From positions 1-64,000 of the forward strand of contig NZ_JACOQD010000006.1 in NCBI RefSeq assembly GCF_014297365.1: 64,000 nucleotides of DNA, in the 5' to 3' direction. Positions within the stretch are counted from its first letter, which is position 1. Each line of letters begins with the position of its first letter. This DNA is from Winogradskyella echinorum. GTDB lineage: Bacteria > Bacteroidota > Bacteroidia > Flavobacteriales > Flavobacteriaceae. Below are positions 5,477-22,843 of the stretch, piece by piece. A program made the position numbers and the translations under genes. The notes below the pieces were generated by a model. It did no database searches. It had not been told where the DNA came from and saw only the letters and a program-made list of their open reading frames with translations.

Positions 5477-5556
5477 GAGTCCCTTAATTAATTTCACCAT
5501 AGTCTATAATTATTTAATTAGTATTTGACGTGTACGTTAAATGCCTAAATCAATTT

Positions 5557-8500
5557 ATGTCAACAAAATTTTTTACCAACCAAGACCAAAACACACTATT
5601 AAACAAATTCAAAGGCATCTTTGAAAATAACAAAGACATTGAGTTTTTTGATGCTATTGTTGGTTACTTCCGTGCCTCTGGATATTTTAAGATAAGACCA
5701 TTTTTAGATAATGTTCCCAATATTAGAATTCTTGTTGGTATTGATGTCGATGTTATTCTAGCAAAATATCAATCTAAAGGGTTGCTGTTTAAAGGTGATG
5801 CCAATCAAACACTTATAGAATTTTTAGCTGATACGAAGGAAGATATTCAAACTGCAAATTATAGCAAAGATGTTGAAGATGGTATTCTTCAATTCATTGA
5901 GGATATTGCTACTAAGAAAATTGAAATCAAAGCACATCCTAGTAAAAAATTACATGCAAAAATTTACATTTTTAAACCTGAAAATTGGAACGAGCATAGA
6001 CCTGGTCACGTCATCACAGGGTCTTCTAACTTAACACATTCAGGACTTGGAGGTGATAAAGGTGATCATAATTACGAATTCAATGTGAAGCTTAGTGATT
6101 ATGACGATGTAAAGTTCGCTTCTGACGAATTTCAACAACTCTGGAAAGAAGGTATTGTGATTCTTCCTGTTGAAATCAATAAAGTCAAAAAGGAAACTTA
6201 TCTCAATAGTGAGTTTACACCTTTTGAATTATATATTAAATTCTTGATAGAATACTTTGGGAAAAGCGTAGAATTTGACCCTAATTCTATTACAGATTTA
6301 CCAGATGGATTTAAACGATTGTCCTATCAAGTTGATGCTGTGAACGAAGGCTATAAAATGCTAGAAAAGCATAATGGTTTCTTCTTATCTGATGTAGTTG
6401 GATTGGGAAAGACTGTGATTGCAACACTGATTGCAAAGAAGTTTTTCTATTCTAATGATTTTCCATCGCACATTTCTAACATCCTTATTATTGTTCCACC
6501 AGCATTAAAAGATGGTTGGATTGAAACATTAGATAAATTTCAATTACAGAATTACAAAATAATTACAAATGGAAGTTTGCACAAAGTAAGAGATGCTGCA
6601 AAGTATGATTTGATTATTGTAGATGAAGCGCATAAATTTAGAAATGATACAGCAGAAGCCTATAACGAACTTCAAAAGATATGTAAGACGAAGACCAAAC
6701 GTCGTTTAAAGGATAATACTTATGCCGACAAAAAGGTAATTTTAGTCTCTGCAACACCATTAAATAACAGACCAGAGGATATTGCTAACCAAGTATACTT
6801 ATTTCAGGATTCTAAGGATTCTACTTTAGAGATTTCGAACCTTCAACACTTTTTTAGACATCGTATCGATGCCTATAAGAAGTTGAAAAAACACAATAAT
6901 ATAAAAGAAATCCAAGAAGGTGTTGCTTACATCTATCAGCAGATTCGTGAAAAAGTGATTCAACCATTAACTGTTAGACGTACACGTTCGGATTTAATGG
7001 CGCATGACCAGTATAGTGAAGACCTGAAAGAACAAAACATCGTTTTTCCAGATATTCAAAAGCCTAAAAAAATATTTTATGAGCTAGATGATGAGTTAGA
7101 TGAACTTTACGATAAAACCATGTATTTGTTGAGTCATAAAACTAAAGGGATTCAATATTTACGTTACCAAGCGATCAAGTTTTTAAAGGAAGAAAAGAAA
7201 GCTAAATATAAAAATGCAGATGTGGCTTCAGAAGCTTTGGCAAAATTGATGAAAACGCTATTGGTAAAACGCATTGACAGTAGTTTTTACGCCTTTAAAA
7301 AATCCCTCAACCGATTTACGGAGGCTACTGAGGCGATGATTAAGATGTTTGATGCAGGTACCATTTTTATTGCGCCTAACTTAAACGTTACGGAATATGT
7401 CATGGAAGAAAAAGAAGATGAGCTGTTGACTAAACTTATCTTCTTGAGAGAAACCGATCCTACCATAGAAATATGTACACCATCAGATTTTCTTCCAAAT
7501 TTTGTTGATGGACTAAAACGCGATTTTGAAATCTTAACAGAACTCAATGACCATTGGAAAACTGTAGAGCAAGACCCAAAGATTGATGAATTTGTAAGGC
7601 GCTTAAATACCGAGTTACTTCAAAAAACCATTAATCCAGAGCAAAAACTCGTGGTATTTTCAGAATCTAAAGAAACCACAAACCACATAGCAAAACAGTT
7701 AAAAGGTGCTGGGCGCAAAGATGTTTTAGAAATACATTCAGATAATCGAAATAAGCTAAAACAAGTGATTCGCGAAAATTTTGATGCCAACATACCACGA
7801 AAAGATTATAAATCTGATTATAATATCATAATAGCCACAGAAGTCTTAGCAGAAGGTGTCAATTTACATCGTGCAAACGTTATTGTTAATTACGATACAC
7901 CTTGGAATTCTACACGACTCATGCAGCGTATTGGTCGTGTTAATCGTATAGGGTCTCTAGCAAATCAAGTGCATATTTACAATTTTTATCCAACAGCTAA
8001 AGTTAACGACGATATCGAGCTAGAGAAAAAAGCTATTATGAAATTACAAGCGTTTCATTCTGCTTTAGGAGAAGATAGCGAAATCTATTCACCAGATGAA
8101 GAAACGCAATCCTTTGGATTGTTTGACCAAGATGTCGATGAAGATAAAGACGAGCGTTTAGCATACCTCATGGAATTACGAAAGTTTAAAGCAGAAAGTC
8201 CTGAGTTGTTCCGAAAAATTAAAAATATGCCGCTTCGTGCTCGTGTTGGTCGTGAGTCTAGAACCTTAAAAGGCACTTCAATTTGTTTTATGCGAAACCA
8301 TCGTCGTGATGCTTTCTATTTTGTAAGACCAGATAATAGTATTGAAGAACTCACTTTTATAGAAACAGCTAAGGAATTTAATGCTAATGTGCCTGAAAAG
8401 GCAGTGCCATTACCAGAGGCACATCATGAGCAAATACAAGTAGCTCTTGCCGATTTTAACGAGAAAATACAAACCGAAATGGCAAGTGCACAAGTGGTTG

Positions 8501-8844
8501 ATACCACACAAGGACCAAACGAGAAACGTGCCTTGGCGTATATGGATGGCTTTTTAGATTTTCCATTTGCTTCAGAAGAAGAAAAGAAACTTATAAAGGC
8601 AGCGAAACAAGCCGTAAAGCTTGGTAAGTTTCAAAAACTACAGCGCGAGGTAAATAAACTAAAGAAAAATGCAAAAGCAGCACCATTAAAAGCTACGGAC
8701 TTAATGGATGCCTTAATAAAAATAATCAATCAATACCCAGTATTGCAAAACGATACTCTAGATCAGCGACCAGCAATTACGATTAAATCGCTTGAAAAAT
8801 TAAAACCAGAAATCATCATTTCTGAATCGTTTACACACAAATAA
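5557..8844 (+). CDS. PLD-nuclease-like/SNF2-type helicase (defence, Hma-type helicase)
   Basis: A 1095-residue protein from the ATG at 5557; a GTG at 5530 would add nine residues, but ATG is the more likely start. The N-terminus carries a phospholipase D-like domain with an HAKIY motif (His near 133) and a GSSNLTHSG segment. A superfamily 2 helicase follows: Walker A VGLGKT (about 281-286), DEAH box (about 356), motif III SATPLNNR and motif VI QRIGRVNRIG (about 790). Such PLD-SNF2 proteins act as DNA translocases with an attached (often single-HKD) nuclease in restriction-like systems. The gene lies 6 nt before a large adenine methylase and then an ATPase, matching the helicase-methylase-ATPase (Hma) arrangement I recall from computational defence surveys. 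DISARM drmD-like helicases are the alternative relative, but drmA/drmB are absent. Confidence 0.88.
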   Translation: MSTKFFTNQDQNTLLNKFKGIFENNKDIEFFDAIVGYFRASGYFKIRPFLDNVPNIRILVGIDVDVILAKYQSKGLLFKGDANQTLIEFLADTKEDIQTANYSKDVEDGILQFIEDIATKKIEIKAHPSKKLHAKIYIFKPENWNEHRPGHVITGSSNLTHSGLGGDKGDHNYEFNVKLSDYDDVKFASDEFQQLWKEGIVILPVEINKVKKETYLNSEFTPFELYIKFLIEYFGKSVEFDPNSITDLPDGFKRLSYQVDAVNEGYKMLEKHNGFFLSDVVGLGKTVIATLIAKKFFYSNDFPSHISNILIIVPPALKDGWIETLDKFQLQNYKIITNGSLHKVRDAAKYDLIIVDEAHKFRNDTAEAYNELQKICKTKTKRRLKDNTYADKKVILVSATPLNNRPEDIANQVYLFQDSKDSTLEISNLQHFFRHRIDAYKKLKKHNNIKEIQEGVAYIYQQIREKVIQPLTVRRTRSDLMAHDQYSEDLKEQNIVFPDIQKPKKIFYELDDELDELYDKTMYLLSHKTKGIQYLRYQAIKFLKEEKKAKYKNADVASEALAKLMKTLLVKRIDSSFYAFKKSLNRFTEATEAMIKMFDAGTIFIAPNLNVTEYVMEEKEDELLTKLIFLRETDPTIEICTPSDFLPNFVDGLKRDFEILTELNDHWKTVEQDPKIDEFVRRLNTELLQKTINPEQKLVVFSESKETTNHIAKQLKGAGRKDVLEIHSDNRNKLKQVIRENFDANIPRKDYKSDYNIIIATEVLAEGVNLHRANVIVNYDTPWNSTRLMQRIGRVNRIGSLANQVHIYNFYPTAKVNDDIELEKKAIMKLQAFHSALGEDSEIYSPDEETQSFGLFDQDVDEDKDERLAYLMELRKFKAESPELFRKIKNMPLRARVGRESRTLKGTSICFMRNHRRDAFYFVRPDNSIEELTFIETAKEFNANVPEKAVPLPEAHHEQIQVALADFNEKIQTEMASAQVVDTTQGPNEKRALAYMDGFLDFPFASEEEKKLIKAAKQAVKLGKFQKLQREVNKLKKNAKAAPLKATDLMDALIKIINQYPVLQNDTLDQRPAITIKSLEKLKPEIIISESFTHK

Positions 8845-8850
8845 TGCTGT

Positions 8851-11800
8851 ATGAATAAAAAAGAATTACAAAATAAGCTGAATCAGCCCTATGCACAAGA
8901 CAATTGGAAAGATGTTGTGGAATTTGTGTTTCCTAATGTTCAAATTTTGGCAATGCCGCAAGTCATTCCAATTGAAAATGAAAAGGTAGAGACCTTTAAA
9001 AAATTAGGCGAAGTTAAATTAAATGATGGAAAAGCATTAGCCCTTTTTGAATTAAAACTAAAAGAGAATGTCAACATCATTCGTAATAGAGTCGAATTAA
9101 ATGATATTGCCTCTAAATATATCGATCAAGAACAAACACATGGTGTTTTATCTATTTTTGAGCAAGGTAAAGATGATTATCGGTTTACCTTTTCTGCACG
9201 AGCTAGTGAATATGATGAAGAAGTTGGTGATTTTAAGACAAAAAAAACCGATACCAAGCGTTTCACATACGTCCTAGGTAAAAACGAAAGTTGTCGTACA
9301 GCAGCAGAACGTTTTTATCAACTAAGTGAGAAAAAGAACGAAGCTGATATTGCTGCCATAGAGCATGCCTTTTCTGTAGAAACTTTAAGTAAAAACTTTT
9401 TTAAGGAATACAAACAACAGTATGAGTTGTTTGTAAATTATTTAACTCAAAGACCAGGTTATTATACTGCTGTGTTTAAAAACGATGATAAAGCCATACG
9501 CGATTGGGTAAAATTGCTTTTAGGTCGTTTGGTATTCATAAAGTTTGTGCAGAAAAAAGGTTGGTTAGGTGTACCAGCAGAGGAAGCAGGTTGGAACAAT
9601 GGCAACTACCGTTTTTTAGAAGACAGTTTTGAAAGCTTTGAACATAAAGATAATTTCTACTCACAATTTTTAAACCCATTGTTTTTTGAAGGTTTTGACC
9701 AACCTTACAGACCAAATGATATTTTTGAACTCACTGGTACTAAAGTTCCTTTTTTAAGTGGTGGTTTATTTGACAACGAAGACCCAAAAACCAAAACCAT
9801 TAATTTCCCTCAAGCCTATTTTGAGGGCTTGTTTGAGTTTTTAGAAAAGTACAATTTTACCATAGATGAGAATGACACAGCTATGGATAGAGAAGTAGGT
9901 ATTGACCCTGAAATGCTAGGTCATATTTTTGAAAATCTACTGGAAGACAATAAAGACAAAGGTGCATTTTACACACCAAAGGAAATTGTTCGCTATATGT
10001 GTCAAGAAAGTTTAAAGGAATATCTTAAAACCTACTTGCAAGAACACAATCAATGGACTAGTGATGAAGCTAAACAACAAGAATTAGATAACGCTTTACA
10101 CAACTTTATTACAAAAAAAGAAGCAAGCCATGTCATAGACCTAGACGCTACCTTGGCACAAGCCCTAAAAGACGTAAAAATATGCGATCCTGCTATTGGC
10201 TCTGGTGCGTTCCCAATGGGATTGCTAAACGAGATTTTTCAGTTGGTGCATAACTTGTACGATGCTAGCCCAGACAAGGTTGGTGCCATTTGGGAGATGA
10301 GCACTTGGCAACCTGATTTGGTAAAGCTTAACATTATACAACAAAGTATTTATGGCGTAGATATAGAAAAAGGTGCTGTAGAGATTGCACGTTTACGCTT
10401 TTGGTTAAGCTTGGTGGTAGATAGTGAAGAACCTCATGCTTTACCACATTTAGACTATAAAATTGTAGTGGGTGATAGTTTGGTGCCTAAACTTGATGAT
10501 AAAACAGTTATTGAAATTAATTGGAAAGCAAAGGAGGAAGACCAAGGGTTTTTTACGGGACCAAAAACAGAACAAAAGTTAAAGCTTCTCAAAGAAATTA
10601 CGCAATTACAAAAGGATGCTTTTGACCCAAATTGCGATGAAGATACTTTAGCTTTAAAAATAAGAAACAAGAAGATTGAGCTTTTAATTATCCAGTTGGA
10701 GATTATGAGCGAAAAACAAAAAATTGTTAAGAAACCTAGTATTATAGATTACCAAAATAAGAGTAAAGCTCAATTTAAACGAGATACTGAAAAATACCTT
10801 GAAACTCTAGGCTGGTCTAATCATGTAAAAGAATTAGAGCATGCCAAAACACTAGATAAAGTCCCATTGAACTTTTTTGACTTTAAGTTAGACTTTCCAG
10901 AGGTATTAAATGATGAAGTAGCAACTAAATATGGTTTTGATATTGTTATTGGTAATCCACCATATTATCAAATACAAAAGTTTGATGAAAAGGATAAAAA
11001 GGATTTACAAAATGCAAATTACAGCACCTTTTCTAGAACTGGTGATATTTACTGTTTATTCTATGAAAAAGGTATAGAGTTATTGAAAAATAAAGGTGTT
11101 TTATCTTATATAACATCAAATACTTGGATGCGAACCAAATTTGGTGAAAAGATGCGTTCATATTTTATTGAAAATTCAAACCCATACAAACTTTTGAATT
11201 TTGAGGACACCAAAATATTTCCGTCTGCTACAGTAGAAGTAAATATAATGTTTACTCGACGGGAAGATTATGATATTAATCTAGATGCTGTAGCGATTAA
11301 AGGCGATTATGTACCAAAGACATCAATCTCTAAGTATTTTGAGAATAAAAAAATAACATTAAAAGAACTAACTGATGATAGCTGGATTATTGTTGATAAA
11401 AAAGATTATTTAATTAAAGAGCAGATTGAAAAAGAAGGTAAACCACTATCCGACTGGAATATTAATTTTTATCGAGGGTTTCTAACTGGATTTAATGATG
11501 CCTTTTTTATTGATAAGAATAAAAAAGATGAATTAATAGACAAAGATACGAGTAGTCAGTTTATAATTAAACCTTTAATAAGGGGAAGAGAAATAAAAAA
11601 GTATGGCTACAATTATCAAAATAGTTATGTGATTTTTCCACACAATGGATATTCAATAAAAAATGATAAAGTTTCTAGAATCTATGTTGAACAGAATTAT
11701 CCAGCTATTTATGATCATCTTCTAAAATATAAAGATGAACATTCAGAATTAGTAGAAAAAGATTCTAAAGGTAAAATCCAAACTTTGGTTAATAGAGCAG

Positions 11801-12462
11801 ACCAAGGTGACCATTGGACTAATTTGAGGAATTGTGCTTATGTAGATGTTTTTGACAATGAAAAAATAATATGGTTGTCAATTTCAGATAAACCAGCTTT
11901 TGCTTTAGATACTAACAAGATGTATGTTACTGCCCCTGCCTATATCATGACCAGTCATTGTAATAAATATTTGCTCACGATGTTAAATTCTAAAGCGATG
12001 GAGTGGTATTTAGATAAGGTTTCATCTTCTACTGGTCAAGGCACCAACCAATGGAGTAAAATTTTTGTTGAAAAACTACCAATACCAGAGCTAAATAGTA
12101 ATAAACGTAAACCATTTGAAATTTTAGCAGACTATTTAACGCTAATTAATGCACCAGAAAACCATCATTTATTCGAAAATATTTCATCAGAAATTATTAG
12201 TAGACAATTTGAAGATGTTGTGAATATGATGGCTTATGAACTATATTTTAAAAAACATATGAAAGAAAAGAAAATAGATGTTTTGCAATATGTTGATTTC
12301 AAAGATATAAGCAACGTGGAAACGTTTGAGGAAAAACGAAATATCATTCAAAATGCGTACTATAAGCTATTAGAGAAAGATAATCCTATACGAAATAGAA
12401 TACTATTGGCTTCTACAAGAAGTGTGGATATTATAAGGCGAATTAACGAAACTACTCATTAA
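8851..12462 (+). CDS. Eco57I-like N6-adenine DNA methyltransferase, large
   Basis: A 1203-residue class I methyltransferase. SAM-binding motif I is at about 446 (DPAIGSGAF) and the catalytic motif IV NPPYY at about 703, typical of gamma-type N6-adenine methylases of the Eco57I/type IIG group. The C-terminal 400 residues resemble a TaqI/type I target-recognition region. The first 250 residues precede the methylase core and may be a degenerate nuclease or adaptor region; I see no convincing PD-ExK there. It probably marks host DNA, while the upstream helicase and downstream ATPase act on unmarked DNA. It is co-transcribed: 6 nt after the helicase and 1 nt before the ATPase. Confidence 0.9.
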   Translation: MNKKELQNKLNQPYAQDNWKDVVEFVFPNVQILAMPQVIPIENEKVETFKKLGEVKLNDGKALALFELKLKENVNIIRNRVELNDIASKYIDQEQTHGVLSIFEQGKDDYRFTFSARASEYDEEVGDFKTKKTDTKRFTYVLGKNESCRTAAERFYQLSEKKNEADIAAIEHAFSVETLSKNFFKEYKQQYELFVNYLTQRPGYYTAVFKNDDKAIRDWVKLLLGRLVFIKFVQKKGWLGVPAEEAGWNNGNYRFLEDSFESFEHKDNFYSQFLNPLFFEGFDQPYRPNDIFELTGTKVPFLSGGLFDNEDPKTKTINFPQAYFEGLFEFLEKYNFTIDENDTAMDREVGIDPEMLGHIFENLLEDNKDKGAFYTPKEIVRYMCQESLKEYLKTYLQEHNQWTSDEAKQQELDNALHNFITKKEASHVIDLDATLAQALKDVKICDPAIGSGAFPMGLLNEIFQLVHNLYDASPDKVGAIWEMSTWQPDLVKLNIIQQSIYGVDIEKGAVEIARLRFWLSLVVDSEEPHALPHLDYKIVVGDSLVPKLDDKTVIEINWKAKEEDQGFFTGPKTEQKLKLLKEITQLQKDAFDPNCDEDTLALKIRNKKIELLIIQLEIMSEKQKIVKKPSIIDYQNKSKAQFKRDTEKYLETLGWSNHVKELEHAKTLDKVPLNFFDFKLDFPEVLNDEVATKYGFDIVIGNPPYYQIQKFDEKDKKDLQNANYSTFSRTGDIYCLFYEKGIELLKNKGVLSYITSNTWMRTKFGEKMRSYFIENSNPYKLLNFEDTKIFPSATVEVNIMFTRREDYDINLDAVAIKGDYVPKTSISKYFENKKITLKELTDDSWIIVDKKDYLIKEQIEKEGKPLSDWNINFYRGFLTGFNDAFFIDKNKKDELIDKDTSSQFIIKPLIRGREIKKYGYNYQNSYVIFPHNGYSIKNDKVSRIYVEQNYPAIYDHLLKYKDEHSELVEKDSKGKIQTLVNRADQGDHWTNLRNCAYVDVFDNEKIIWLSISDKPAFALDTNKMYVTAPAYIMTSHCNKYLLTMLNSKAMEWYLDKVSSSTGQGTNQWSKIFVEKLPIPELNSNKRKPFEILADYLTLINAPENHHLFENISSEIISRQFEDVVNMMAYELYFKKHMKEKKIDVLQYVDFKDISNVETFEEKRNIIQNAYYKLLEKDNPIRNRILLASTRSVDIIRRINETTH

Positions 12463-12463
12463 A

Positions 12464-14026
12464 TTGAAGATAGATAAATTACATATTAATGATTTTAAAT
12501 TCTTCTCTAAAGTAGAACCTGATAGTCCTTTGCTTTCTATTGATGGTAATCACCTATTAATTTATGGAGAAAATGGAAGTGGAAAATCAACTATTTATTG
12601 GTCACTTTATACCTTATTGGAATGTAGTTTCAAAAATTCAGATGATGAAATAAGAAAGTATTTTAAGAAAACAGGTGATGAAAGTTTAGTTAATATTCAT
12701 GCTACAGGCTCAAGCGATTCTTATATTAAAGTAGAACTAAATGATGGATTTGGTAATTCGACCAGATATAAGGCTTCTAGGAAAGCAAGAGATTTATCTA
12801 TAAGAACTAATACAGATGTAAGAGAAAGCAATATGGCATCTGACTTTATAAATTATAGAGTCCTTTTTCAACTTCATAATTTAAAACATTCAAAGGATAA
12901 CAATCTTTGGCAATGGTTTTATGAAGAAGTTTTGCCTTATGTTAAAAAAGGTAGCGACCCTTGTTTAGATGAATATGATGTGCTTAAACAAGGTCCTGGT
13001 AAAGTTAATAATTTGGCAGGTGATGAGATATTTCCAACAGCAGCATTAAGAACTGCTTCGGCATTAGAAGAGCGACGATTATATAGAAATTACAAAGATT
13101 ATCGTAATCAATGGAAAGCTTGGATGAATTGGTTGAAGGATTTTCTATCAAGAATTACAACTAGAGCTAATCAGCTAATCAGAAATGATTTTAGATATAA
13201 TTTTAGAATAGTTCTAGACTTTAAATGCAGATTTCCAGATTATAGAGCTACAGATGATACAATAAAGTGGTTTGATCCTGAAATTAAACTAATAGTTTCT
13301 GAATATGAAGGTGTGGCTAATCCAAAAATCACAAAACCACATACGTTTTTAAATGAAGCCAAATGGTCTGCAATTGGTTTAGCATTGCGTTTTGCTATTT
13401 TAGAACAGCGTCTTTATGTGGCTGATATGAAAGTGTTAGTTATTGATGATATGATTATTAGTCTAGATATGTCTAATCGAGAAGCAGTACTTAACTTAAT
13501 TCTAAATAACTATATAAACGATTATCAATTAATATTAATGACACATGATAGATTTTTCTTTGAAATGGCAAAATACACCATAGAGAAAGGAGCAATGCCT
13601 AACTTCAAGTATTTAGAAATGTTTGAAGATTCTAACGGTGCATTTCCAAAACCTTTAATCATTGAAAATACTTCTCAAATTGAGAAAGCGTGGCAATTAT
13701 TTCATAGAAAAGAATTCGCATTGTCTGCTAATACATTAAGGAAAGCATCTGAAAAATTGTGCAAGGCCTATTTAACAGCACATGAAAGATTAAATATAAC
13801 ATCATACACAGTTAGGAATTTACATAGTCAAATAGAACAATTTCAGACAAAAGGATTATTAGCTGGATTGAATGCAATTAATTTAATAAGATTTATTGAG
13901 TATAAGGATAGAATATTAAACCCAAGTTCTCATTACGATATTGAAACACCATTATTTGAGAGTGAATTAAAAAGAGCTATTGAAACTGTTGAAGCTTTGG
14001 CATTAGAAACAGGATTTAACATTTAA
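12464..14026 (+). CDS. AAA/ABC-type ATPase of the helicase-methylase-ATPase system
   Basis: A 520-residue protein beginning at TTG, 1 nt after the methylase stop; this start is needed to include the first strand of the ATPase domain (KIDKLHINDFKFF). Walker A is GENGSGKST (about 31-39) and Walker B is VLVIDD (about 325-330). The intervening region is about 290 residues with a short helical insert, and a KWSAIGLALR segment replaces a canonical ABC signature. The C-terminal 120 residues form a separate helical domain. It resembles RecF/SMC-like ATPases found in defence operons. Energy coupling or DNA-end sensing is an inference. Confidence 0.85.
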   Translation: MKIDKLHINDFKFFSKVEPDSPLLSIDGNHLLIYGENGSGKSTIYWSLYTLLECSFKNSDDEIRKYFKKTGDESLVNIHATGSSDSYIKVELNDGFGNSTRYKASRKARDLSIRTNTDVRESNMASDFINYRVLFQLHNLKHSKDNNLWQWFYEEVLPYVKKGSDPCLDEYDVLKQGPGKVNNLAGDEIFPTAALRTASALEERRLYRNYKDYRNQWKAWMNWLKDFLSRITTRANQLIRNDFRYNFRIVLDFKCRFPDYRATDDTIKWFDPEIKLIVSEYEGVANPKITKPHTFLNEAKWSAIGLALRFAILEQRLYVADMKVLVIDDMIISLDMSNREAVLNLILNNYINDYQLILMTHDRFFFEMAKYTIEKGAMPNFKYLEMFEDSNGAFPKPLIIENTSQIEKAWQLFHRKEFALSANTLRKASEKLCKAYLTAHERLNITSYTVRNLHSQIEQFQTKGLLAGLNAINLIRFIEYKDRILNPSSHYDIETPLFESELKRAIETVEALALETGFNI

Positions 14027-14030
14027 GTGA

Positions 14031-14105
14031 AATGGCGCGTTTCGGTAATTCGTCCCTATTAAAGTTTCTTTTCGCGCCAATTCGGCGCGAAAATGGCGCG
14101 AAAAT
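14031..14105. repeat. GC-rich palindromic element between two defence operons
   Basis: In an otherwise AT-rich gap this contains TTTTCGCGCC/GGCGCGAAAA (14069-14078 and 14084-14093, 5-nt loop), a perfect 10-bp inverted repeat. AATGGCGCG occurs as a direct repeat at 14031-14039 and 14092-14100. The hairpin followed by A/T sequence could be an attenuator or terminator; alternatively it is a protein-binding or recombination site marking the junction of two modules. Confidence 0.6.
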
Positions 14106-14117
14106 TAAAATTAATTA

Positions 14118-14807
14118 ATGGAAAATAAATTTGCATTTACAGTAGGAGGACCAGATAATTGGTATGACCAATACATTCAAGCAGGTATAGAATTAATTTC
14201 AGCTTACATAGAACATTCTGAAATATATAATAGTTTGGCAATTACAGATTACCATAAATACAAAGAAACTGAGATTGTAGAACATGAATATGGTGCAAAT
14301 ATTATGATTCATTTTAGGAGTATTGATGGTGGTACATTTGACGCAGAAGATACTATTACAAATCACTTTCCAAATTTAAATAGGCGTGCAACTTTGGTTA
14401 TGGTTACTAGTATGTTTGAAAAAGAATTGAAGCAACTATGCGATTCGCTTAACAGTCTTTTAGATATAAATAAACCATTCAAAAAAGAGAAAGGAAGTCT
14501 ACTTGCAAACATTAAAGACTACCTATGTAATGTCGCAAAGATAAAAATGAATACATCATTAGAGCATAATTGGAGCGACCTCATGTGCTTACAATCGTTA
14601 AGAAATAACATAGTGCATAATTTTGGGAAACTAGCAGTCAGTAATACACATCTAGAAAACTACATAAGGGCTAACAAGAATATTTGGATTGATAAGAGTA
14701 GAGATATTTGTTTAAACCATGAGTTTCTAAAAGATTTAGTACCAAGCTTCATAATATTATGCAAAGAACTACAAGAAGCGATAAGGGAGAGGGCTAACAA
14801 AATGTAA
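14118..14807 (+). CDS. HEPN-domain protein (RX4H), putative RNase
   Basis: A 229-residue, largely helical protein. It has the HEPN signature Rx4-6H as R162-NNIV-H167 in the context LRNNIVHNFG, preceded by helices with FEKELKQLCD; this resembles the MAE_28990/RiboL-PSP HEPN groups. Members with an intact R..H pair are commonly metal-independent RNases used as toxins or effectors. No nucleotidyltransferase antitoxin is adjacent. It lies 91 nt after the ATPase, across the palindrome, and 10 nt before the VWA gene, so it probably opens the second transcription unit. A role as the abortive effector of the island is inference. Confidence 0.75.
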   Translation: MENKFAFTVGGPDNWYDQYIQAGIELISAYIEHSEIYNSLAITDYHKYKETEIVEHEYGANIMIHFRSIDGGTFDAEDTITNHFPNLNRRATLVMVTSMFEKELKQLCDSLNSLLDINKPFKKEKGSLLANIKDYLCNVAKIKMNTSLEHNWSDLMCLQSLRNNIVHNFGKLAVSNTHLENYIRANKNIWIDKSRDICLNHEFLKDLVPSFIILCKELQEAIRERANKM

Positions 14808-14817
14808 ATTTATTAGT

Positions 14818-16215
14818 ATGGAAACACATTTTGAGATATTGATAGATGCTTCTGGGAGTATGGGTTATATGCGAGGCGAAAAGGATGAAGAGAATAAATA
14901 TTTACTTTCAGATAGAAAACATACGCGTACAGATTTAGTAAAAAAAATATTAAACCAATCAATAATAAATACTATAGAATTTAGCGAACATATTAAGGTT
15001 TCAACTTTTAGAAATAAATTTAATTTAGATAAAAATAATGAGCGCATAATTTTAACTCGATGGGTAAAGAATGAAAACGGCAAGAATGTTCAAGAAAGGT
15101 ATTATTCGATGTCTCAAGATATTAATGTGATTTATGAAGGTCCTTTTAATTCAGATGAATTAAAGAGTAAAATTGAAACTATAGAAAATCCTATGCCAGC
15201 AGGTACGCCATTATACTATATTTTGGCGCAAACAATATCTAAATCTATTACCAATCAAGTTAATATCATCATTTTAAGTGATGGTGACGCAAATGATAGA
15301 ATTGAATTTGATATAGACATTTTAGAGTTGATACATGGTTCTAAAAAAGATGTAAAAATTCACTTTATAGGTATTGCACAAGATGAGGTTGCTCAAAAAA
15401 AATCTAAAAATTTAGCAGAAAAAACAGGTGGCATCTATAGCAATTTAAAAGCGATGAATTATGACGTAAATGCATTAAATGTGTTGCTTTCAGAGCTTAA
15501 TACAAAAATAATGTCAAACGCTTTAGAGGATAATATCAAGCAAACTCAAATTATAGCAGCAACTAAATTAGATGAAACCCAGAAAGACAACACCGATCAT
15601 TTAGCTAAAGATGAAGGTGATAAATCAGAAAAAGAAACTAATGTTATAGTAAAAGATAAGAGTGATTTAGAAAAGCAGGTTCATAAAAATACTTCATCAT
15701 TAGAATATATTTCTGGTCAGCTAAATAACATATTAAAGCTACTTCAATCTAAAGAACAACTTGAAAAAGACGTCAAGGTTGTTGAAAATAAAATTCATAA
15801 CGAACGCATTGGACGTTTGGCTGAAGATTTTTTATATAAAAAATTACGAGAATTATTTAAAGACGAGTCAACTAAAGTTAGTTGGCTTAACGAAAATGGA
15901 GAACAAGGTTTGCCTTATGATTTTTTATTAGAAAGTGATAAGGGAAAATTTTACTATGAATGTAAAGGTACGTCATCTAATTTTTTAGAATTTCAATTGA
16001 CTAAACCTGAATGGGATTTTTATCTTGATAATAGAAATAAATATAGGTTGTGTTTTGTGAAGAATGTTGATTCCGATGCACAATACACTCGTTTTATGGA
16101 TTTGCTTACAGCTATGGAAGAAAAAAAATTAACACCTTGTTCTATGCAAGACAAAGCATATAAAGCAAATAGATTAATATTTGCAATAAATGAATCAGAT
16201 ATAAAATGGACTTGA
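14818..16215 (+). CDS. VWA domain fused to DUF3883-like nuclease domain
   Basis: A 465-residue protein. Residues 1-220 are a von Willebrand factor A domain with a complete MIDAS: DASGS (10-14), AGTPL and LSDGDAND. Residues 225-330 are a charged linker with a predicted coiled coil. Residues 328-465 resemble DUF3883 (the NO VEIN C-terminal fold): a conserved E336, PYD368 and E381-C-K383 (YYECKGT) in the arrangement of the PD-(D/E)xK nuclease superfamily. It overlaps the next gene by 10 nt. VWA proteins usually partner MoxR/AAA ATPases, so McrB two genes downstream is a natural candidate partner. No signal peptide was seen. Function in phage defence is inferred from context. Confidence 0.75.
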   Translation: METHFEILIDASGSMGYMRGEKDEENKYLLSDRKHTRTDLVKKILNQSIINTIEFSEHIKVSTFRNKFNLDKNNERIILTRWVKNENGKNVQERYYSMSQDINVIYEGPFNSDELKSKIETIENPMPAGTPLYYILAQTISKSITNQVNIIILSDGDANDRIEFDIDILELIHGSKKDVKIHFIGIAQDEVAQKKSKNLAEKTGGIYSNLKAMNYDVNALNVLLSELNTKIMSNALEDNIKQTQIIAATKLDETQKDNTDHLAKDEGDKSEKETNVIVKDKSDLEKQVHKNTSSLEYISGQLNNILKLLQSKEQLEKDVKVVENKIHNERIGRLAEDFLYKKLRELFKDESTKVSWLNENGEQGLPYDFLLESDKGKFYYECKGTSSNFLEFQLTKPEWDFYLDNRNKYRLCFVKNVDSDAQYTRFMDLLTAMEEKKLTPCSMQDKAYKANRLIFAINESDIKWT

Positions 16216-16460
16216 TTATAGGCAACTACTACGACAACATAAAATGTGAAAGCTTTAAAGATCCTGAAACTGGTAGAATACGAGTTAGACCATTGCCAAA
16301 CCAAGGTTTGCCAACTAAAATTGTTATTGAGTGTAAAGAAAAAACACGAAATGCGCATCCGATAGGAACCAAATTTCGTACTGAAAATGTTAAAGTTTGT
16401 CAGAAAACTACTGGTAGAATTTATTTGAGAGCTAAAGACCAAATGATTTATAAATTATAA
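16206..16460 (+). CDS. 84-aa protein of unknown function in defence operon
   Basis: A small, basic, probably all-beta protein, unrecognised. Its ATG overlaps the end of the VWA gene by 10 nt and it stops 2 nt before the next ATG, which argues for translational coupling and a real gene. It has two isolated cysteines (IECKEK and KVCQK) but no metal-binding CxxC pair. The compact strand-rich pattern (IRVRPLP, KIVIECKE, RIYLRAKD) may suggest a binding or adaptor module. Confidence 0.65.
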   Translation: MDLIIGNYYDNIKCESFKDPETGRIRVRPLPNQGLPTKIVIECKEKTRNAHPIGTKFRTENVKVCQKTTGRIYLRAKDQMIYKL

Positions 16461-16462
16461 AA

Positions 16463-17113
16463 ATGAAAAACTTCGAAGTCACATTTAAGAATGGTTTATT
16501 GCTTGATAAGCAAACTGGTAAACGCATAAATCTAAAACCTTTTGAAACCTATTATCTACAAGGAGATGATAACAGTTTTCTATTAGAGGAATATATAAAA
16601 ACAGACTACAAGCCTTTAGATGCTTCTCAAAAATTAAAGACTTTAGAAAATAGGCATAATGGTTATGAGTTAAAACAATTAGCTTCTGCAGGAGATAAAT
16701 TTGTTTTTAGAGTTGGTCTTGGAAAGCGTTTTGAAGAAGATGTAGTAAGAGAGTATTTATTTGATGCTGCACTGCAAGAAGACTTATACATGAAGAAAAA
16801 ACACAATAAAGCATCTTGGACTTTGTGTAATTGTGTTTGCAATAGTCCCAACTTGCTAGAAGGTGAGTTAGGTTTTCCGTTTCAAAATGTAGAAGCAAAT
16901 TCTTTAAGTGAGCTCTTTGCTAATGTAGTGAGTACCTATTTTAATATGAAACGTTCAACTGCATGTAATGCTTTTAAAACGTTTTATTATTACCCAAAAG
17001 AAGATAGACCTACGCTATATTGGTTGAAATCTAGCAAGAAATTGAATTTGGATTTGAAGCGTAAGGCTATTGTAATTAACCGTAAACAAAAAGAAATATT
17101 AAAACGAAATTAA
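16463..17113 (+). CDS. 216-aa protein of unknown function preceding McrB
   Basis: Unrecognised. The N-terminal 60 residues are strand-rich; the middle has a cysteine-containing segment LCNCVCN (about 122-128); the C-terminus is strongly basic. Aromatic and basic residues in the second half (TFYYYPKEDRPTLYWLKS) would suit nucleic-acid binding, but this is a guess. Its stop codon abuts the McrB ATG with no spacer, so it belongs to the McrBC operon. Confidence 0.65.
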   Translation: MKNFEVTFKNGLLLDKQTGKRINLKPFETYYLQGDDNSFLLEEYIKTDYKPLDASQKLKTLENRHNGYELKQLASAGDKFVFRVGLGKRFEEDVVREYLFDAALQEDLYMKKKHNKASWTLCNCVCNSPNLLEGELGFPFQNVEANSLSELFANVVSTYFNMKRSTACNAFKTFYYYPKEDRPTLYWLKSSKKLNLDLKRKAIVINRKQKEILKRN

Positions 17114-20100
17114 ATGCCATTTCAACCTGATAAAATAAACAGAGAGCATGTTTTAAGAGCCTTCAAAGAAATTGATAGTGGAGAAATTGGTGTAAGACAA
17201 TCCACCAAATTTGATATTCTACACGAAGGTAAAACATATCCGCCAAAAGATGTGATGCGTCTTGCTCATGAATATGCAACGGGAGAATATTTGTGGCTTC
17301 CAGGCGGAGGTGAGCCTACCAATAAATATTTAAAGAATCTACAATTTAAAATTGTAAACAAGACAGTAAATGAATTAGTCAATGTTAAAAATGATTTTGC
17401 AAAATGGTTGTTAAATAATGCGCCGGATTCTTATAATCAATATTTAGGGAGCTCTGTACAATCCATAATAGAGCGCCTAGATGAAATAGGGACGTTCTTC
17501 CCGGACTATAAGTTTTTTGAAATTGACCCAAAAACAGTTACTGCAAAAATCAAAGACATTAGACTTATTTTCAGTACTAAGGAGCGAAGAAAAAATTTGG
17601 AATTCGTACAATATGACAAGTTTCATAGTAATGGAATTCCTAAAGCTGTGCTCGGAAAAAATCATTATCTAAGATATTTGAAAGAAAGGTTCAGCGAATC
17701 AAATAGTGAAATCGGTTATTGGCTATTTCAAGGGAATCCAAAGATTTTTGATTTTGCGTCGGCAATTGGTAATAACACATTACAGAACTTTACAGTGTCT
17801 TCGCATAAGGATAAAATAAAGATTGGAGATAAGGTAATTATATGGCTATCTGGTGAAAATGCGGGTTGTTATGCATTGGCAGAAATAATACATGAACCAA
17901 GGGTTGTTGAAGTGAGTGTAGATGATGCACATTGGAAAATAGAACAACCTACAGATATTAAGGCAGGAATTAGGATAACGCACAATTTTTACAATAACCC
18001 TATCTTAAAATATAAAGTAGCCCAAAACCTTAAACTAAAAGATTTAAAATTAGGGCTTCAAGGCACCAACTTCAGTGCAACGAAAAACGAATATCAAGAA
18101 TTATTGAGTATGTCAGAGAATAATAATTATACATGGGTACAAACGCACAAAGGGCTAGTCGACTATTTAAAAAATTATAAGAACAAACAACCTGAGTTAA
18201 TAGAGTTATTAAAATCTGTAGGATGTGAAATATTCAATGATAAAGATGCAATTGATAGCACAGTAGACCTAGAAGTCATAGATCCTTTTACTTTTTTCTG
18301 TTATATATATAAGTATGGCGATGTCCGTAGGCTGGAAATATTGCAAGCAATCGCTACTAAATTAAACCTGCACTATCCAGAAGATGAACGAGGCATTCCA
18401 TCCGCTAATGCTCAGAAAGTATGGATGTTCCCTTGGAAGTATCAGAGAGTTAATAACGAAATTGATACATTATGGAAATTGTTTTACGAAGTGACTGATA
18501 ATGAAATTTTAGAATCAACGTTTCAAGATGCCCTAAAAATACAGAATGTTGGAAAGACAAAAATTACAGAAGCCCTTTTTTATGTAGATCCAGAATATTA
18601 CTTTCCAATTAATGGTCCTACAAAGCCTTATTTAAAAACGGTTTTTGGTATTGCTACTGATTTTAATAGTTATTCTGAATATATGACTATTTTAAATCAA
18701 CTGAAGCAAAAAACAAAAAAGCCATTTTATCAAATTTCTTATGAAGCTTGGCTTTGGAATAAAGGAACTGTTGCAGAACCTACAAGTTCGTATAAAACTG
18801 AAAAGCAAATGAAAACGACCAACCTTAATACCATCCTTTTTGGCCCACCAGGCACAGGGAAAACCTATAACACTATCAATGAAGCTTTAAAAATTGTAGA
18901 TCCAGAATTCTATAAAGCAAACGAGGATAACCGTGAAGCATTAAATACAAGATTTAAACAGTTATTAATTAAAAAATGGGATGAAACTAAAGGGCAAATT
19001 GCATTTTGTACATTTCATCAATCATTTAGCTATGAAGATTTTGTAGAAGGTATAAAGCCTAAAGTAAATGATAATAAAGAGGTATTCTATAAAATAGAAA
19101 ATGGTGTGTTTAAAAATATTTGTGAGCTTGCTGATAGTAATCTGAGTACTTTAAAAGTAAAAAAGGAAGGTAAACTATCTTGGGACGAAGAACAATTTAG
19201 GCGTGCTAGTTTTTATAAGTTGTCTTTAGGAAATTCTCAGAATTCTGAGGATAATGAAATATATGAGTATTGTAGAGATAATAACTATATAGCTATTGGT
19301 TTTGGTCAGGGTTTGGATTATTCAGATTTAGGTGAAACAGAAGTAAAAGAGAAATTTGAGGAAACTGGCCAAAGTGAAACGGATGCTCAACAATTTAATT
19401 ACTTTAAGAATTATTTAAAGGTGGGAAATTATGTTTTGATAAGTAATGGCAATAAATATGTCAGGGCTTTAGGAAAAGTAACAGGAGATTATGAGTATGA
19501 TCCAAATGCACCAATAAGATACAATCATTTTAGAAATGTAGATTGGATTTTTAAAGATGAAAATATTCCAATAGAAGAAATTTATGAAAAAGGATTAAGC
19601 CAAAGAACAATTTATAAAATAAATGAAAACAAATTAAGACCAGAATTTTTCATAAATAAAGGGCAATTAATTGAAAATAACGAACCAATAGAAAAGGACT
19701 ATGTCCTAATTATAGATGAAATTAATAGAGGAAATGTATCGTCTATTTTTGGTGAATTAATCACACTTATTGAAAACGATAAAAGAGCAGGAAAAGATGA
19801 AGAGTTAGAAGTGATATTACCCTACTCAAAGCAACCTTTTAAAGTACCGCATAACGTTCATTTAATTGGCACAATGAATACTGCTGATAAAAGTATTGAA
19901 GCTTTGGACACCGCTTTACGGAGACGTTTTAGTTTTACAGAAATGCCACCAAAACCAAAACTAATTGAGACTGAAAGTCTGTCTGGAAAAGTAAATGGTT
20001 TGGTTGATGGCATTAATTTAAAAGACTTATTAAATATAATTAATAAGCGCATCGAAAAACTAATAGATAAAGATCATACGATTGGGCATTCATACTTCCT

Positions 20101-20353
20101 AAAAGTTAATGATAAATCATCATTGATTCACTGTTTTAAAAATGAGGTTATTCCATTGTTGGAGGAGTACTTCTTTGGAGATTATGGGAAAATAGGTTTA
20201 GTTCTTGGTGGTAGTTTTATTACTAAAGATGACTCAGATGACTTCGAGTTTGCCGAGTTTGAAGGCTATGATGCTGATATAAGTTCAGATTTAAAAGAAC
20301 GATCAGTCTATAAAATAGCAAAATCAAAAGATTGGGATTTTAATACCATTTAA
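17114..20353 (+). CDS. mcrB: McrB-type AAA+ restriction GTPase with EVE domain
   Basis: A 1079-residue protein. Residues 1-85 resemble the head domain of ScoMcrA-type type IV enzymes (KTYPPKDVMRLA, GGGEPTNKYL). Residues 200-335 are an EVE (PUA-like) domain starting GYWLFQGNPKIF. A linker region of unknown fold spans 340-560. The AAA+ motor has Walker A GPPGTGKT (577-584), Walker B VLIIDEINRG (864-873), an MNTADKS segment (921-927) and Arg-rich RRRF (936-939). Between Walker A and B, about 690-845, sits an inserted strand-rich domain (NYIAIGFG, GNYVLISNG, RALGKVTGDY) that looks like a second PUA-type module. Family role: recognise modified DNA and translocate with McrC to cut it. Its TAA overlaps the McrC ATG. 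Confidence 0.92.
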   Translation: MPFQPDKINREHVLRAFKEIDSGEIGVRQSTKFDILHEGKTYPPKDVMRLAHEYATGEYLWLPGGGEPTNKYLKNLQFKIVNKTVNELVNVKNDFAKWLLNNAPDSYNQYLGSSVQSIIERLDEIGTFFPDYKFFEIDPKTVTAKIKDIRLIFSTKERRKNLEFVQYDKFHSNGIPKAVLGKNHYLRYLKERFSESNSEIGYWLFQGNPKIFDFASAIGNNTLQNFTVSSHKDKIKIGDKVIIWLSGENAGCYALAEIIHEPRVVEVSVDDAHWKIEQPTDIKAGIRITHNFYNNPILKYKVAQNLKLKDLKLGLQGTNFSATKNEYQELLSMSENNNYTWVQTHKGLVDYLKNYKNKQPELIELLKSVGCEIFNDKDAIDSTVDLEVIDPFTFFCYIYKYGDVRRLEILQAIATKLNLHYPEDERGIPSANAQKVWMFPWKYQRVNNEIDTLWKLFYEVTDNEILESTFQDALKIQNVGKTKITEALFYVDPEYYFPINGPTKPYLKTVFGIATDFNSYSEYMTILNQLKQKTKKPFYQISYEAWLWNKGTVAEPTSSYKTEKQMKTTNLNTILFGPPGTGKTYNTINEALKIVDPEFYKANEDNREALNTRFKQLLIKKWDETKGQIAFCTFHQSFSYEDFVEGIKPKVNDNKEVFYKIENGVFKNICELADSNLSTLKVKKEGKLSWDEEQFRRASFYKLSLGNSQNSEDNEIYEYCRDNNYIAIGFGQGLDYSDLGETEVKEKFEETGQSETDAQQFNYFKNYLKVGNYVLISNGNKYVRALGKVTGDYEYDPNAPIRYNHFRNVDWIFKDENIPIEEIYEKGLSQRTIYKINENKLRPEFFINKGQLIENNEPIEKDYVLIIDEINRGNVSSIFGELITLIENDKRAGKDEELEVILPYSKQPFKVPHNVHLIGTMNTADKSIEALDTALRRRFSFTEMPPKPKLIETESLSGKVNGLVDGINLKDLLNIINKRIEKLIDKDHTIGHSYFLKVNDKSSLIHCFKNEVIPLLEEYFFGDYGKIGLVLGGSFITKDDSDDFEFAEFEGYDADISSDLKERSVYKIAKSKDWDFNTI

Positions 20354-21624
20354 TGCGTCATTTAATTCAAATATTCGAATATCAAAAACTTTGTGCTCAT
20401 GACAAGACTTATTTTGTCAATGAAGTCATCGGAAAAAAAGTAATAGAGAAGCTTTGGCAATACAATGATGCGCATAACAATATTTATTTTACTGCTATTC
20501 GTAATGGTGTAAAGTTTAGACAGTTCGTTGGTGTTATTCAAATAAGAAACATAACTATTGAGATTTTGCCAAAAGCGGATAGACAAAAATCTACAGAAGG
20601 TGATAAGCAAAATTGGCATAACGTTTTACTGAATATGTTAGCTAAATGCAAAAAAATTCGAGTAGATTCTGTAAGCGAGGCGTCGTTAAAAAAACGCTAC
20701 CACTCACTGTTAGATTTATACTTTGAGCAGTATTTACAGGAAGTCAATTACCTTTTAGAACAAGGTCTAGTTAAAAAATACCATAAACAAAGCGGTAATC
20801 TTAGTGTTTTAAAAGGGAGACTACAATTTGCTCAAAATATTCAACATAATATAATTCATAAAGAACGGTTCCATACCTCACATCAAATTTATGATACTAA
20901 CCATACTTTGAATCAAATATTATACAAAGGCTTAAAGGTTTTAAAAACAATCACAAATAATAATTCACTTATAGATGGTATTAATAGAGTGCTAAGTAGA
21001 TTTCCAGAAATGGATGATAAGACTATAAATAAAACTCATTTCGATGGTTTAGTTGATAATAGAAAAACAACAGCTTATAAGGAAGCTATTAAAATTGCCA
21101 AAATGATTATTCTTAATTATTCACCGGATATCAAAGGTGGTCAGGATCACATGATAGCATTGTTGTTTGATATGAATAAACTATGGGAAGAATATGTGTA
21201 TCGTGTTTTGTCAAAACATCAAAATAAACATATTAATGTAAGTTTTCAGAATAGTGATAAGTTTTGGAATAATAAGCGAATCAAACCAGATATAGTTTTA
21301 ACCAAAATTAATGATCAAAATGAAGAAGAGGTTTTTGTGATAGATACCAAATGGAAAGTGATCGATCCTAGTAAGCCTAGTGATGACGACTTAAAACAAA
21401 TGTATGCCTATAATATGTATTGGGAATCGAGTAGAAGTATGTTGTTATATCCTTCTTCAAACCCAAAAATGACTTCCTTCGGATCATTTCATAAAGGTAG
21501 AGATGGTGAGAATAAATGTAAATTAGGATTCATTAAAGTTATTAAAGACTATAAACTAAACTTAGATTTAGGCTTAGATATTTTGGATATGTTGTTTAGT
21601 GATATCCCTGCCATCGATCGATAG
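20353..21624 (+). CDS. mcrC: McrC endonuclease subunit
   Basis: A 423-residue McrC-family protein. The N-terminal part is the McrB-interaction region. The C-terminal PD-(D/E)xK nuclease core is visible as KPDIVL (about 311, with D) followed by VFVIDTKWK (about 330, D-x-K). The ATG shares one base with the McrB stop (TAATG), the usual coupling of this pair. With McrB it forms a type IV restriction complex that cuts DNA carrying modified bases. The gene is complete and is the last in the island; no terminator hairpin with T-run was found directly after it. Confidence 0.92.
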   Translation: MRHLIQIFEYQKLCAHDKTYFVNEVIGKKVIEKLWQYNDAHNNIYFTAIRNGVKFRQFVGVIQIRNITIEILPKADRQKSTEGDKQNWHNVLLNMLAKCKKIRVDSVSEASLKKRYHSLLDLYFEQYLQEVNYLLEQGLVKKYHKQSGNLSVLKGRLQFAQNIQHNIIHKERFHTSHQIYDTNHTLNQILYKGLKVLKTITNNNSLIDGINRVLSRFPEMDDKTINKTHFDGLVDNRKTTAYKEAIKIAKMIILNYSPDIKGGQDHMIALLFDMNKLWEEYVYRVLSKHQNKHINVSFQNSDKFWNNKRIKPDIVLTKINDQNEEEVFVIDTKWKVIDPSKPSDDDLKQMYAYNMYWESSRSMLLYPSSNPKMTSFGSFHKGRDGENKCKLGFIKVIKDYKLNLDLGLDILDMLFSDIPAIDR

Positions 21625-22042: not shown

Positions 22043-22843
22043 CTACCCAACAGCAGCAATTTTCATACAATGACCTTGCGCCAACTCATACAAATCACCA
22101 TTCACTTCTTGGTAAAACACAATCGCTGTCGCAGCATACAAGGCAGTCGTAGCAGGAATAGGAGCATAAGCAGTTAAATCTACAGTCAAATCCGTAGCTG
22201 CACCAACCATGGAACCCAAAGCAATAGCATCACTATAAACAACGCTACCCACACCATTTGGTGTATCTTCCACAGGGTCGTAAGCTTTTAGAGCAGGTAC
22301 CCATTCGTAATTACTCACATACCCTGCTGCTAAAACCAACTTACAATGTGTCGCACCTTCTGGCTGTCTTATATAAGTATCGGTGTTAAAATCGGGTATA
22401 GACCATGTGACTGTGTCACGTCCAGCATTAATCTCAGGACCTGTAGAGGGCGCGTTAAATTGGCTGTCAAAAGGTTTGTTCACATTAAAGTTAAACCCTA
22501 TAAACGGTTCTTTGTTGTCCACAACATTCAAGGTGCGCTGTCCACGTAAGCCAGCTCCATTATTCATCATACGACGCATAATACCCGCAACACGAGAGGT
22601 GACGTTAGAATCACTCACCAAGCGCAATATCGAAGCAAAGCTTTCTCTAAAACTCTTGCCACCTTTATTGGCTCCGCCAAATTCTTGCATATTCTCACGG
22701 GTACGTTGGTACTCTGGAGCATTCATAATACGGTTACGACTCACGCTGCTTTTTGTTTTCACAAAATTCTCACCGTTTTTTCTAAAAAAGGTCAACCCAT
22801 CTAAGGTCCCTTCTAATCTGATAAATGAATTATTTTTAGCCAT
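22043..22843 (-). CDS. DUF6266-like hypothetical protein
   Basis: A 266-residue protein from the ATG at 22843 (MAKNNSFIRLEGTLDGLTFF); an upstream ATG would add ten unlikely residues. The N-terminal 100 residues are basic and Gly/Arg-rich (RRMMNNGAGLRGQRT). The C-terminal half is strand-rich and resembles a secreted or structural beta-sandwich, without a signal peptide. I recall multi-copy flavobacterial proteins of this type with no known role. It stands alone inside repeat-rich DNA, with its own terminator and a hairpin-rich leader. Confidence 0.75.
   Translation of the reverse strand: MAKNNSFIRLEGTLDGLTFFRKNGENFVKTKSSVSRNRIMNAPEYQRTRENMQEFGGANKGGKSFRESFASILRLVSDSNVTSRVAGIMRRMMNNGAGLRGQRTLNVVDNKEPFIGFNFNVNKPFDSQFNAPSTGPEINAGRDTVTWSIPDFNTDTYIRQPEGATHCKLVLAAGYVSNYEWVPALKAYDPVEDTPNGVGSVVYSDAIALGSMVGAATDLTVDLTAYAPIPATTALYAATAIVFYQEVNGDLYELAQGHCMKIAAVG

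Follow-up and report, generated by a model that had tools for sequence, protein, structure and literature searches.

Does an McrBC restriction pair that is directly preceded by four further genes form a fixed defence system of six genes, or is it accompanied by a cassette that also exists without it? The question is raised by a locus in the 64,000-nucleotide stretch of Winogradskyella echinorum contig NZ_JACOQD010000006.1 analysed here (the window), in which genes for a HEPN protein (HEPN229), a fusion of a VWA domain to NOV_C (DUF3883), and two small proteins (p84 and p216) are followed by those for McrB and McrC. The first-pass annotation had proposed that these six genes make up an extended McrBC system, and the open reading frames (ORFs), coordinates and junctions that it gave all agreed with the ORF list, in which the six lie on the + strand (junctions in order: a spacer of 10 nucleotides (nt), a 10-nt overlap, 2 nt, 0 nt and a 1-nt overlap). 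The gene row on this strand is longer and begins before position 14118, with defence-type genes running from 5530 to 21624 and the block forming its 3' part. The recurrence of HEPN229, VWA–NOV_C and p84 both with and without McrBC, and of p84 and p216 elsewhere, points to a portable cassette associated with McrBC, not to a fixed six-gene system. We give about an even chance to the reading that HEPN229–VWA/NOV_C–p84 is a portable back-up effector cassette that is often attached to McrBC.

Five VWA–NOV_C loci were found, namely the window, L085 (genome G818), L049 (G734), L050 (G731) and L007. In L085, which belongs to another genus of the same family, the five-gene order HEPN229–VWA/NOV_C–p84–McrB–McrC recurs on one strand, and the first three proteins are 52%, 35% and 83% identical to those of the window. 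The p84 gene is followed by a separate 96-aa McrB head, by McrB (71% identity over window residues 538-1079) and by McrC (59%), and the junctions consist of a 10-nt spacer, a 13-nt overlap and a 5-nt spacer. No EVE domain was called in the L085 McrB, so its recognition part seems to have been exchanged. This block is without p216, which is therefore not needed for the association of the cassette with McrBC. Upstream of the L085 cassette lie HsdM-, HsdS-, RAMA-, SMC- and DndE/HerA-type genes and an uncharacterised 93-aa ORF. Just behind McrC, L085 (14929-19737) and another McrB locus, L053 (12031-16833), each encode a protein of about 1600 aa, which in G818 is a DEAD/UvrD double helicase according to Pfam.

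In L049 and L050, which come from two genomes of the same genus as the window, the cassette is not accompanied by McrBC. Their VWA–NOV_C proteins are 98% identical to each other and 59-60% identical to that of the window; HEPN229 is 57% identical to the window protein, and p84 of G734 83%. Upstream in G731 there are homologues of PDC-M33A/B/C (PADLOC), with genes of the same lengths in that place in G734, and downstream both genomes have an ATPase–HNH-type gene pair (36-38% identical between them). Neither of these 19-kb stretches contains a McrB. A McrC was not found in G731, while that of G734 lies on a different contig. Among the 12 flanking proteins checked, only the ATPases of the AAA–HNH pairs had a Walker A motif, and these matched AAA_21/ABC-type families. 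By pairwise identity, the L049 and L050 copies of VWA–NOV_C group with that of the window, all other pairs, including those with L007 and L085, being 35-43% identical. On this measure, a single loss of McrBC would suffice to explain the unlinked copies.

The fifth locus, L007 in a Flavobacterium metagenome-assembled genome, repeats the order VWA|NOV_C–p216–McrB. Its p216 is 58% identical to that of the window. Behind it lies a McrB relative, cut by the contig end, in which window residues 1-682 are matched, including the EVE region (40%); Pfam called nothing in this fragment. Several consecutive ORFs that by eye resemble the RhuM family lie at L007:346-3987, after what is, also by eye, the likely end of a type IIG restriction-methyltransferase (IIG) gene.

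Across the five loci, HEPN229 lies upstream of VWA–NOV_C in four, p84 is intact in three and broken in one, and p216 is present in two. The start of the cassette (HEPN229–VWA–NOV_C–p84) keeps its order, its 10-nt spacing and its overlap of 10-13 nt in the window, L049, L050 and L085. The proposal of an extended McrBC system was borne out as far as McrB and McrC follow the cassette in G818 and a truncated McrB follows VWA|NOV_C and p216 in L007. The fixed unit of six genes was not, since the cassette stands alone in G734 and G731 and the G818 block has no p216. The upstream genes recurring as an independent unit, which the first-pass annotation had named as evidence against its proposal, was found in part, in G734 and, with a broken p84, in G731. 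An obligate six-gene system is ruled out by L049, L050 and L085 and by the occurrence of p216 and p84 in other contexts.

The association was also examined from the side of McrB. The N-terminal 560 residues of the window McrB were matched in part in 36 of 395 genomes of the phylum (its own included), many of these by the head or the EVE domain alone. The 23 other McrB or McrB-like loci that were compared comprised 16 from the 35 other phylum genomes and seven from a DNA search of the genus, which covered 60 of 68 genomes and matched in 16 besides its own, 11 of these being examined. A tblastn search with the cassette and p216 proteins of several loci (E <= 0.001) gave no match in any of the 23, of which L023 includes only about 1.1 kb upstream of McrB. 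All nine control loci gave matches to their own genes; for the broken p84 of L050 the match spanned just 16 residues. These results suggest that McrBC of the window's kind usually stands without the cassette. Counted from VWA–NOV_C, a McrB relative lies downstream in three of five loci (three of four if L049 and L050 are counted once), while counted from McrB, 0/23 other loci carry any of the four genes.

In a sample of 24 McrB loci, the McrB of L085 was the nearest to that of the window (74% over 509 aa, against 52% for the next one as long and 63% for a shorter match of 221 aa), and so was its McrC (59%; next 53%). The nearest McrBC thus carries the cassette in another genus, as co-inheritance of the block predicts.

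Table 1. Features of the window discussed in the text.
Feature	Position	Strand	Length	Remarks
HKD+SNF2 helicase	5530..8844	+		PADLOC C3a139 6.2e-39, DrmD 2e-38; NCBIfam matches below its cutoffs
Type IIG restriction-methyltransferase	8851..12462	+		Eco57I 3.3e-39, TaqI_C 3.3e-16; PADLOC REase_MTase_IIG 4e-134
SMC/RecF-like ATPase	12464..14026	+		weak C-terminal HEPN/DUF4145 match; ends 91 nt before HEPN229
AT-rich spacer	14027..14117	+	91 nt	GC-rich palindrome TTCGCGCC-aattc-GGCGCGAA at 14071-14091
HEPN229	14118..14807	+	229 aa	predicted RNase effector, cassette gene 1
VWA-NOV_C (DUF3883) fusion	14818..16215	+	465 aa	cassette gene 2
Domains of the fusion				VWA at residues ~1-235, long helical linker, PD-(D/E)XK-like NOV_C at ~335-423
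p84	16206..16460	+	84 aa	small basic protein, cassette gene 3
p216	16463..17113	+	216 aa	rare, accessory, outside the conserved core
EVE-McrB	17114..20353	+	1079 aa	Pfam and motifs
McrC nuclease subunit	20353..21624	+	423 aa	PF10117, PDI...DTK

McrB recognises modified foreign nucleic acid through exchangeable N-terminal domains, and McrC cuts. The McrBC pair of the window itself is ordinary, and it is the attached cassette that makes the block a variant. The McrB consists of an N-terminal head, an EVE domain at residues 202-321 (Pfam 1.2e-7) and an NTPase with an insert, for which Pfam gave AAA_5 (dynein-related, 4.9e-13). Walker A (GPPGTGKT, residue 577), Walker B (LIIDEINR, 865) and MNTADKS (921) are in place, and the protein matched solved McrB chains with a best E of 5.1e-55. 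The McrC directly downstream matched PF10117 (McrBC, E=2.8e-66) and has the PD-(D/E)XK motif PDI...DTK at residue 312. The pair therefore resembles type IV McrBC restriction in its motifs, its EVE fusion and its canonical NxxD branch, and differs in being preceded by HEPN–VWA/NOV_C–p84 and p216, genes of which none was found at the 23 other loci.

The 465-aa protein had been described in the first-pass annotation as a VWA domain fused to a nuclease-like domain, and this description was upheld. NOV_C (DUF3883) was called by Pfam (PF13020, E=1e-13, 51.6 bits against a cutoff of 22.1). Pfam called no VWA domain; a Foldseek search with the predicted model matched TFIIH and Ku subunits, VWF A1 and integrin I domains (probability 1.00, best E 2.2e-6). 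The model is weak (mean pLDDT 59.7) and supports the fold only, in the N-terminal half, and whole-query TM-scores were low (up to about 0.3 among the matches listed), as expected when only that half aligns. The metal-site residues of the VWA domain (D10-x-S12-x-S14, T130 and D155) and the PYDF and ECKG stretches of NOV_C are invariant in all four full-length sequences, a set that includes that of the window and two near-identical ones. VWA domains bind a partner through their metal-site residues, and VWA proteins often partner AAA+ rings. The phylum search gave matches in at least four of 395 genomes including its own, the other three being NOV_C-only matches with at most four candidates per genome scored, and a second search in which all candidates were scored found it in two of 57, again including its own. 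Two scans of viral contigs gave no relative, plasmid searches with the whole protein and with the VWA part alone gave no match, and a plasmid search with the G818 protein gave one DUF3883-only match.

Assignment of the 229-aa protein to HEPN, as made in the annotation, also stood. HEPN proteins with an R-x4-6-H motif are usually RNases, and HEPN229 has this catalytic motif of the superfamily; R162-x4-H167 is invariant in nine of nine sequences (the window and eight others, five of which are only 20-23% identical to it). The assignment is made from this motif, that is, from sequence. Pfam listed no family for HEPN229 (nor for p216), PADLOC gave only a weak match to RTasHEPN (E=0.0027), and NCBIfam likewise added only weak matches. 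In the phylum search HEPN229 was found in two of 158 genomes, its own and G088, where it lies on a 3.5-kb contig. Distant relatives occurred in 65 plasmid records (<=30% identity among the matches listed), one of them adjoining an 'abortive infection family protein', and a viral-contig scan gave no relative.

The third cassette protein, p84, is basic (pI 9.7) and has 15 residues that are invariant in seven of seven aligned sequences. It had no Pfam match above the cutoff (one below it was implausible), none in NCBIfam or PADLOC, and one weak match in PHROGs (PHROG 38296, E=2.7e-4). Among phages, three weak matches turned up when E values up to 1 were allowed (best 2e-3), and a viral-contig scan gave no relative. 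Within the genus, p84 was detected in five of 68 genomes, own genome and one start-less remnant included. Ten places were examined, the broken L050 copy being left out and the plasmid matches being represented by four of five records (H30 left out). At eight of these p84 is preceded on its own strand, at a distance of about 110 nt or less, by a gene of the nuclease, methyltransferase or defence type: it lies behind VWA–NOV_C in the window, L049 and L085; directly behind BrxL of a BREX locus (L051:8859-9128); behind a PLD/ZacB-like gene (L052); and, on plasmids, directly behind DUF499 in Bradyrhizobium (L074:5992-6255), an annotated DNA methyltransferase in Agrobacterium (L075:4980-5252) and an annotated GIY-YIG nuclease gene in Phenylobacterium (L082:4962-5225). 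In L073, on a Mesorhizobium plasmid, no such gene directly precedes it, and the L071 copy is the start-less remnant, within a row of small genes. We infer that p84 is a small basic accessory that binds nucleic acid. With its position behind six kinds of genes (VWA–NOV_C, BrxL, PLD/Zac-like, DUF499, DNA methyltransferase and GIY-YIG), it is a candidate general accessory factor that lends itself to study. The row in L071 (9956-18999), which is led by the p84 remnant, consists of small same-strand genes with spacers of mostly 67-175 nt and resembles a cassette array.

The 216-aa protein p216 (pI 9.3) also occurs apart from the cassette and McrBC. It was found in six of 395 phylum genomes at E <= 0.001, own genome included, with two strong matches (2.6e-46 and 2.5e-34), one moderate (7.2e-8) and two that were dropped; a genome-contig scan added two further matches. 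The dropped ones were G224 (L006/L013), where a short match falls within a 452-aa protein that has a secretion tail, and G146 (E 7.8e-4, two stops inside). A class-wide profile search (1/395) and a genus search (1/68) found only the own genome. Besides the window, p216 is present in L007, L008, L009 and L010. It precedes McrB in the window and L007, and follows ArdC in L009 and the end of an IIG gene in L010; the stretches L008, L009 and L010 hold no McrB, and the genomes of L009 and L010 yielded no McrC. A fold search (model mean pLDDT 73, Foldseek) gave no fold match (best E=0.19), PADLOC and NCBIfam nothing above weak matches, plasmid and phage searches no match, and a viral-contig scan no relative.

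Among the open-licence papers searched, none was seen, by title, opening of the abstract or passages, to report the combination of HEPN, McrBC and a VWA–DUF3883 protein. CoCoNuT types II and III-A with TerY-P link VWA genes to McrBC (Bell et al., eLife 2024, PMC11090510), and the window block is like them in joining McrBC to HEPN RNases and VWA proteins. However, CoCoNuT McrB carries an NxD instead of the NxxD GTPase motif (PMC11090510), whereas the window McrB has NTAD (NxxD) and the window VWA domain is fused to NOV_C; the motif rules out membership of the CoCoNuTs. Neither a kinase (STK) nor a phosphatase (PP2C) of TerY-P was among the Pfam matches of the eight genes from 8851 to 21624. The MoxR–VWA ternary conflict systems (eLife 2020, PMC7159879) are similar in that a VWA domain keeping its metal-site residues lies close to an AAA+ protein, and include VWA domains fused to peptidase effectors (PMC12839542). 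Unlike these, the AAA+ neighbour in the window is McrB and not MoxR, and the effector is PD-(D/E)XK-like. No VMAP/iSTAND third component was among the matches listed (Pfam, PADLOC and NCBIfam), in which remote forms could be missed. According to PMC12839542 and PMC3710099, HEPN RNases and PD-(D/E)XK nucleases serve BREX and restriction-modification (RM)-like operons as auxiliary or back-up effectors, and the HEPN gene inside the restriction gene row of the window is a parallel to these. The published DUF3883, called a novel restriction endonuclease (REase) domain, is fused to an SNF2 helicase (PMC3710099), in contrast to the window, where it is fused to VWA and stands beside p84.

If the block acts as a portable back-up cassette with McrBC, McrB would sense modified foreign nucleic acid and McrC would cut it first. 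The cassette, which lies in the same gene row as McrBC with p216 in between and may share a transcript with it, would form a second line. VWA–NOV_C, in which the PD-(D/E)XK-type residues are kept, could add a second nuclease, HEPN229 might be an RNase that is held in check until infection is sensed and that shuts the cell down if restriction fails, and p84 would serve as the nucleic-acid-binding accessory. Several observations weigh against this reading. The VWA–NOV_C loci are few (five, two of them near-identical), and frequent attachment to McrBC refers to three cases. The 24 McrB loci are a sample found by similarity and not a census, with L007 excluded and L085 found through its VWA–NOV_C gene. 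At L007, VWA and NOV_C are split by an in-frame stop in the linker, and neither HEPN229 nor p84 was found there, also by tblastn. The p84 of G731 (L050:10787-11002) breaks off near codon 17 and passes into sequence that by eye resembles an HsdS C-terminus. The cassette is thus not always made up of three genes, and the break with its HsdS-like continuation suggests a scar left by recombination at the 3' end of the cassette. No VWA or DUF3883 gene was annotated near HEPN229 relatives in any of five plasmid stretches examined out of the 65 records, where many neighbours were 'hypothetical' and untested, indicating that HEPN229-like proteins also occur outside the cassette.

The scar in G731 would suit a different explanation, in which the cassette, p216 and McrBC are unrelated modules gathered in a defence island and sharing at most one transcript. 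The several other contexts of p84 and p216, the cassette copies without McrBC, and the run of defence-type genes in which the block lies all agree with such passive stacking. It seems somewhat doubtful, however, because the five-gene order recurs in another genus, with the nearest McrBC of the 24 and behind a different upstream system, and because the spacing and overlap at the cassette start are kept in all four HEPN-bearing loci. A much closer coupling is conceivable as well, with VWA–NOV_C docking through its metal site on the AAA+ ring of McrB, much as VWA proteins do on MoxR rings, so that McrB would load or drive the second nuclease. The match of the window McrB to the dynein-related AAA_5 family, the intact metal site in 4/4 sequences and the McrB relatives that follow VWA–NOV_C in the window, L085 and L007 would suit this strict form of an extended McrBC system, as would the published MoxR–VWA coupling in conflict systems and the VWA–McrBC link in CoCoNuTs. 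The copies in L049 and L050 could then be explained by the one McrBC loss mentioned above. Nevertheless, these copies have no McrB within 19 kb and, as ATPases with Walker A, only those of the AAA–HNH pairs, no McrC was found in G731, and the VWA protein is absent from all 23 other McrB or McrB-like loci. Since the cassette in G731 and G734 has no McrB beside it, McrB driving the VWA protein is possible but not favoured, and we consider the strict form unlikely.

The cassette could also be the suicide back-up of the DNA-modifying or defence system upstream of it (here IIG and ATPase), McrBC being a bystander. Same-strand defence-type genes are indeed found upstream in all four HEPN-bearing cassette loci, and the spacer before HEPN229 is short, 12 nt in G734 and G731 and 22 nt in G818. 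The upstream system nevertheless varies by lineage, a McrB relative lies downstream at three of the five loci, and in the window the 91-nt spacer with its palindrome parts the upstream genes from HEPN229; taken together, these points make this explanation very improbable. A broader conjecture, which we regard as quite unlikely, is that of an unnamed anti-phage module whose VWA-tethered PD-(D/E)XK nuclease would be energised by the McrB ring when linked and by another partner otherwise. In this conjecture p84 would be a common small cofactor at the 3' end of loci of several kinds (BREX, DUF499, methyltransferase and McrBC-linked), both in Alphaproteobacteria and in the lineage of the window, presumably Bacteroidota. 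Should the portable cassette work together with McrBC, it would join VWA–DUF3883 and HEPN to classic restriction and provide a small case of VWA–AAA+ coupling in defence.

The genes upstream of the block (Table 1) probably belong to another system. In G046 (L009) both the IIG enzyme and the ATPase recur (38% and 49% identity), the ATPase again following IIG, in a same-strand row (L009:174-10782) that continues with a SMEK/REase–short Argonaute pair, GmrSD, ArdC and p216. This 20-kb stretch has no McrB, and a search of the genome gave no McrC. This recurrence suggests that IIG and ATPase form a separate system with variable cargo behind it. PADLOC placed mad3 first among the best 25 of 46 matches of the ATPase. 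The arrangement is unlike the BREX-related Hma/DUF499 system, as the ATPase matches SMC_N/AAA_23 and its full Pfam list contains no DUF499 (HmaC); HmaA matches only part of the helicase. On a Nostoc plasmid (L077:6988-9434), a distant relative of the ATPase (26%) lies directly after a TaqI-like specificity gene, an order reminiscent of IIG and ATPase in the window.

The palindrome in the spacer before HEPN229 is perfect, with arms of at least 8 bp, and could be a regulator site or an RNA hairpin. The pattern TTCGCGCC-N3-8-GGCGCGAA occurs at one place only in the own genome, and a genome-wide mobile repeat was rejected for this reason. A promoter pattern of the Bacteroidota consensus type was rarer than in shuffles, and a sigma-70/terminator scan gave results at chance level. 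Just behind McrC, between 21734 and 24401, the window contains two copies (92%) of a 226-nt repeat and four of an 89-nt repeat, of which the later ones are 64-82% identical to the first, and short CTAACAG-like units surround the gene for a 276-aa protein at 22043-22873.

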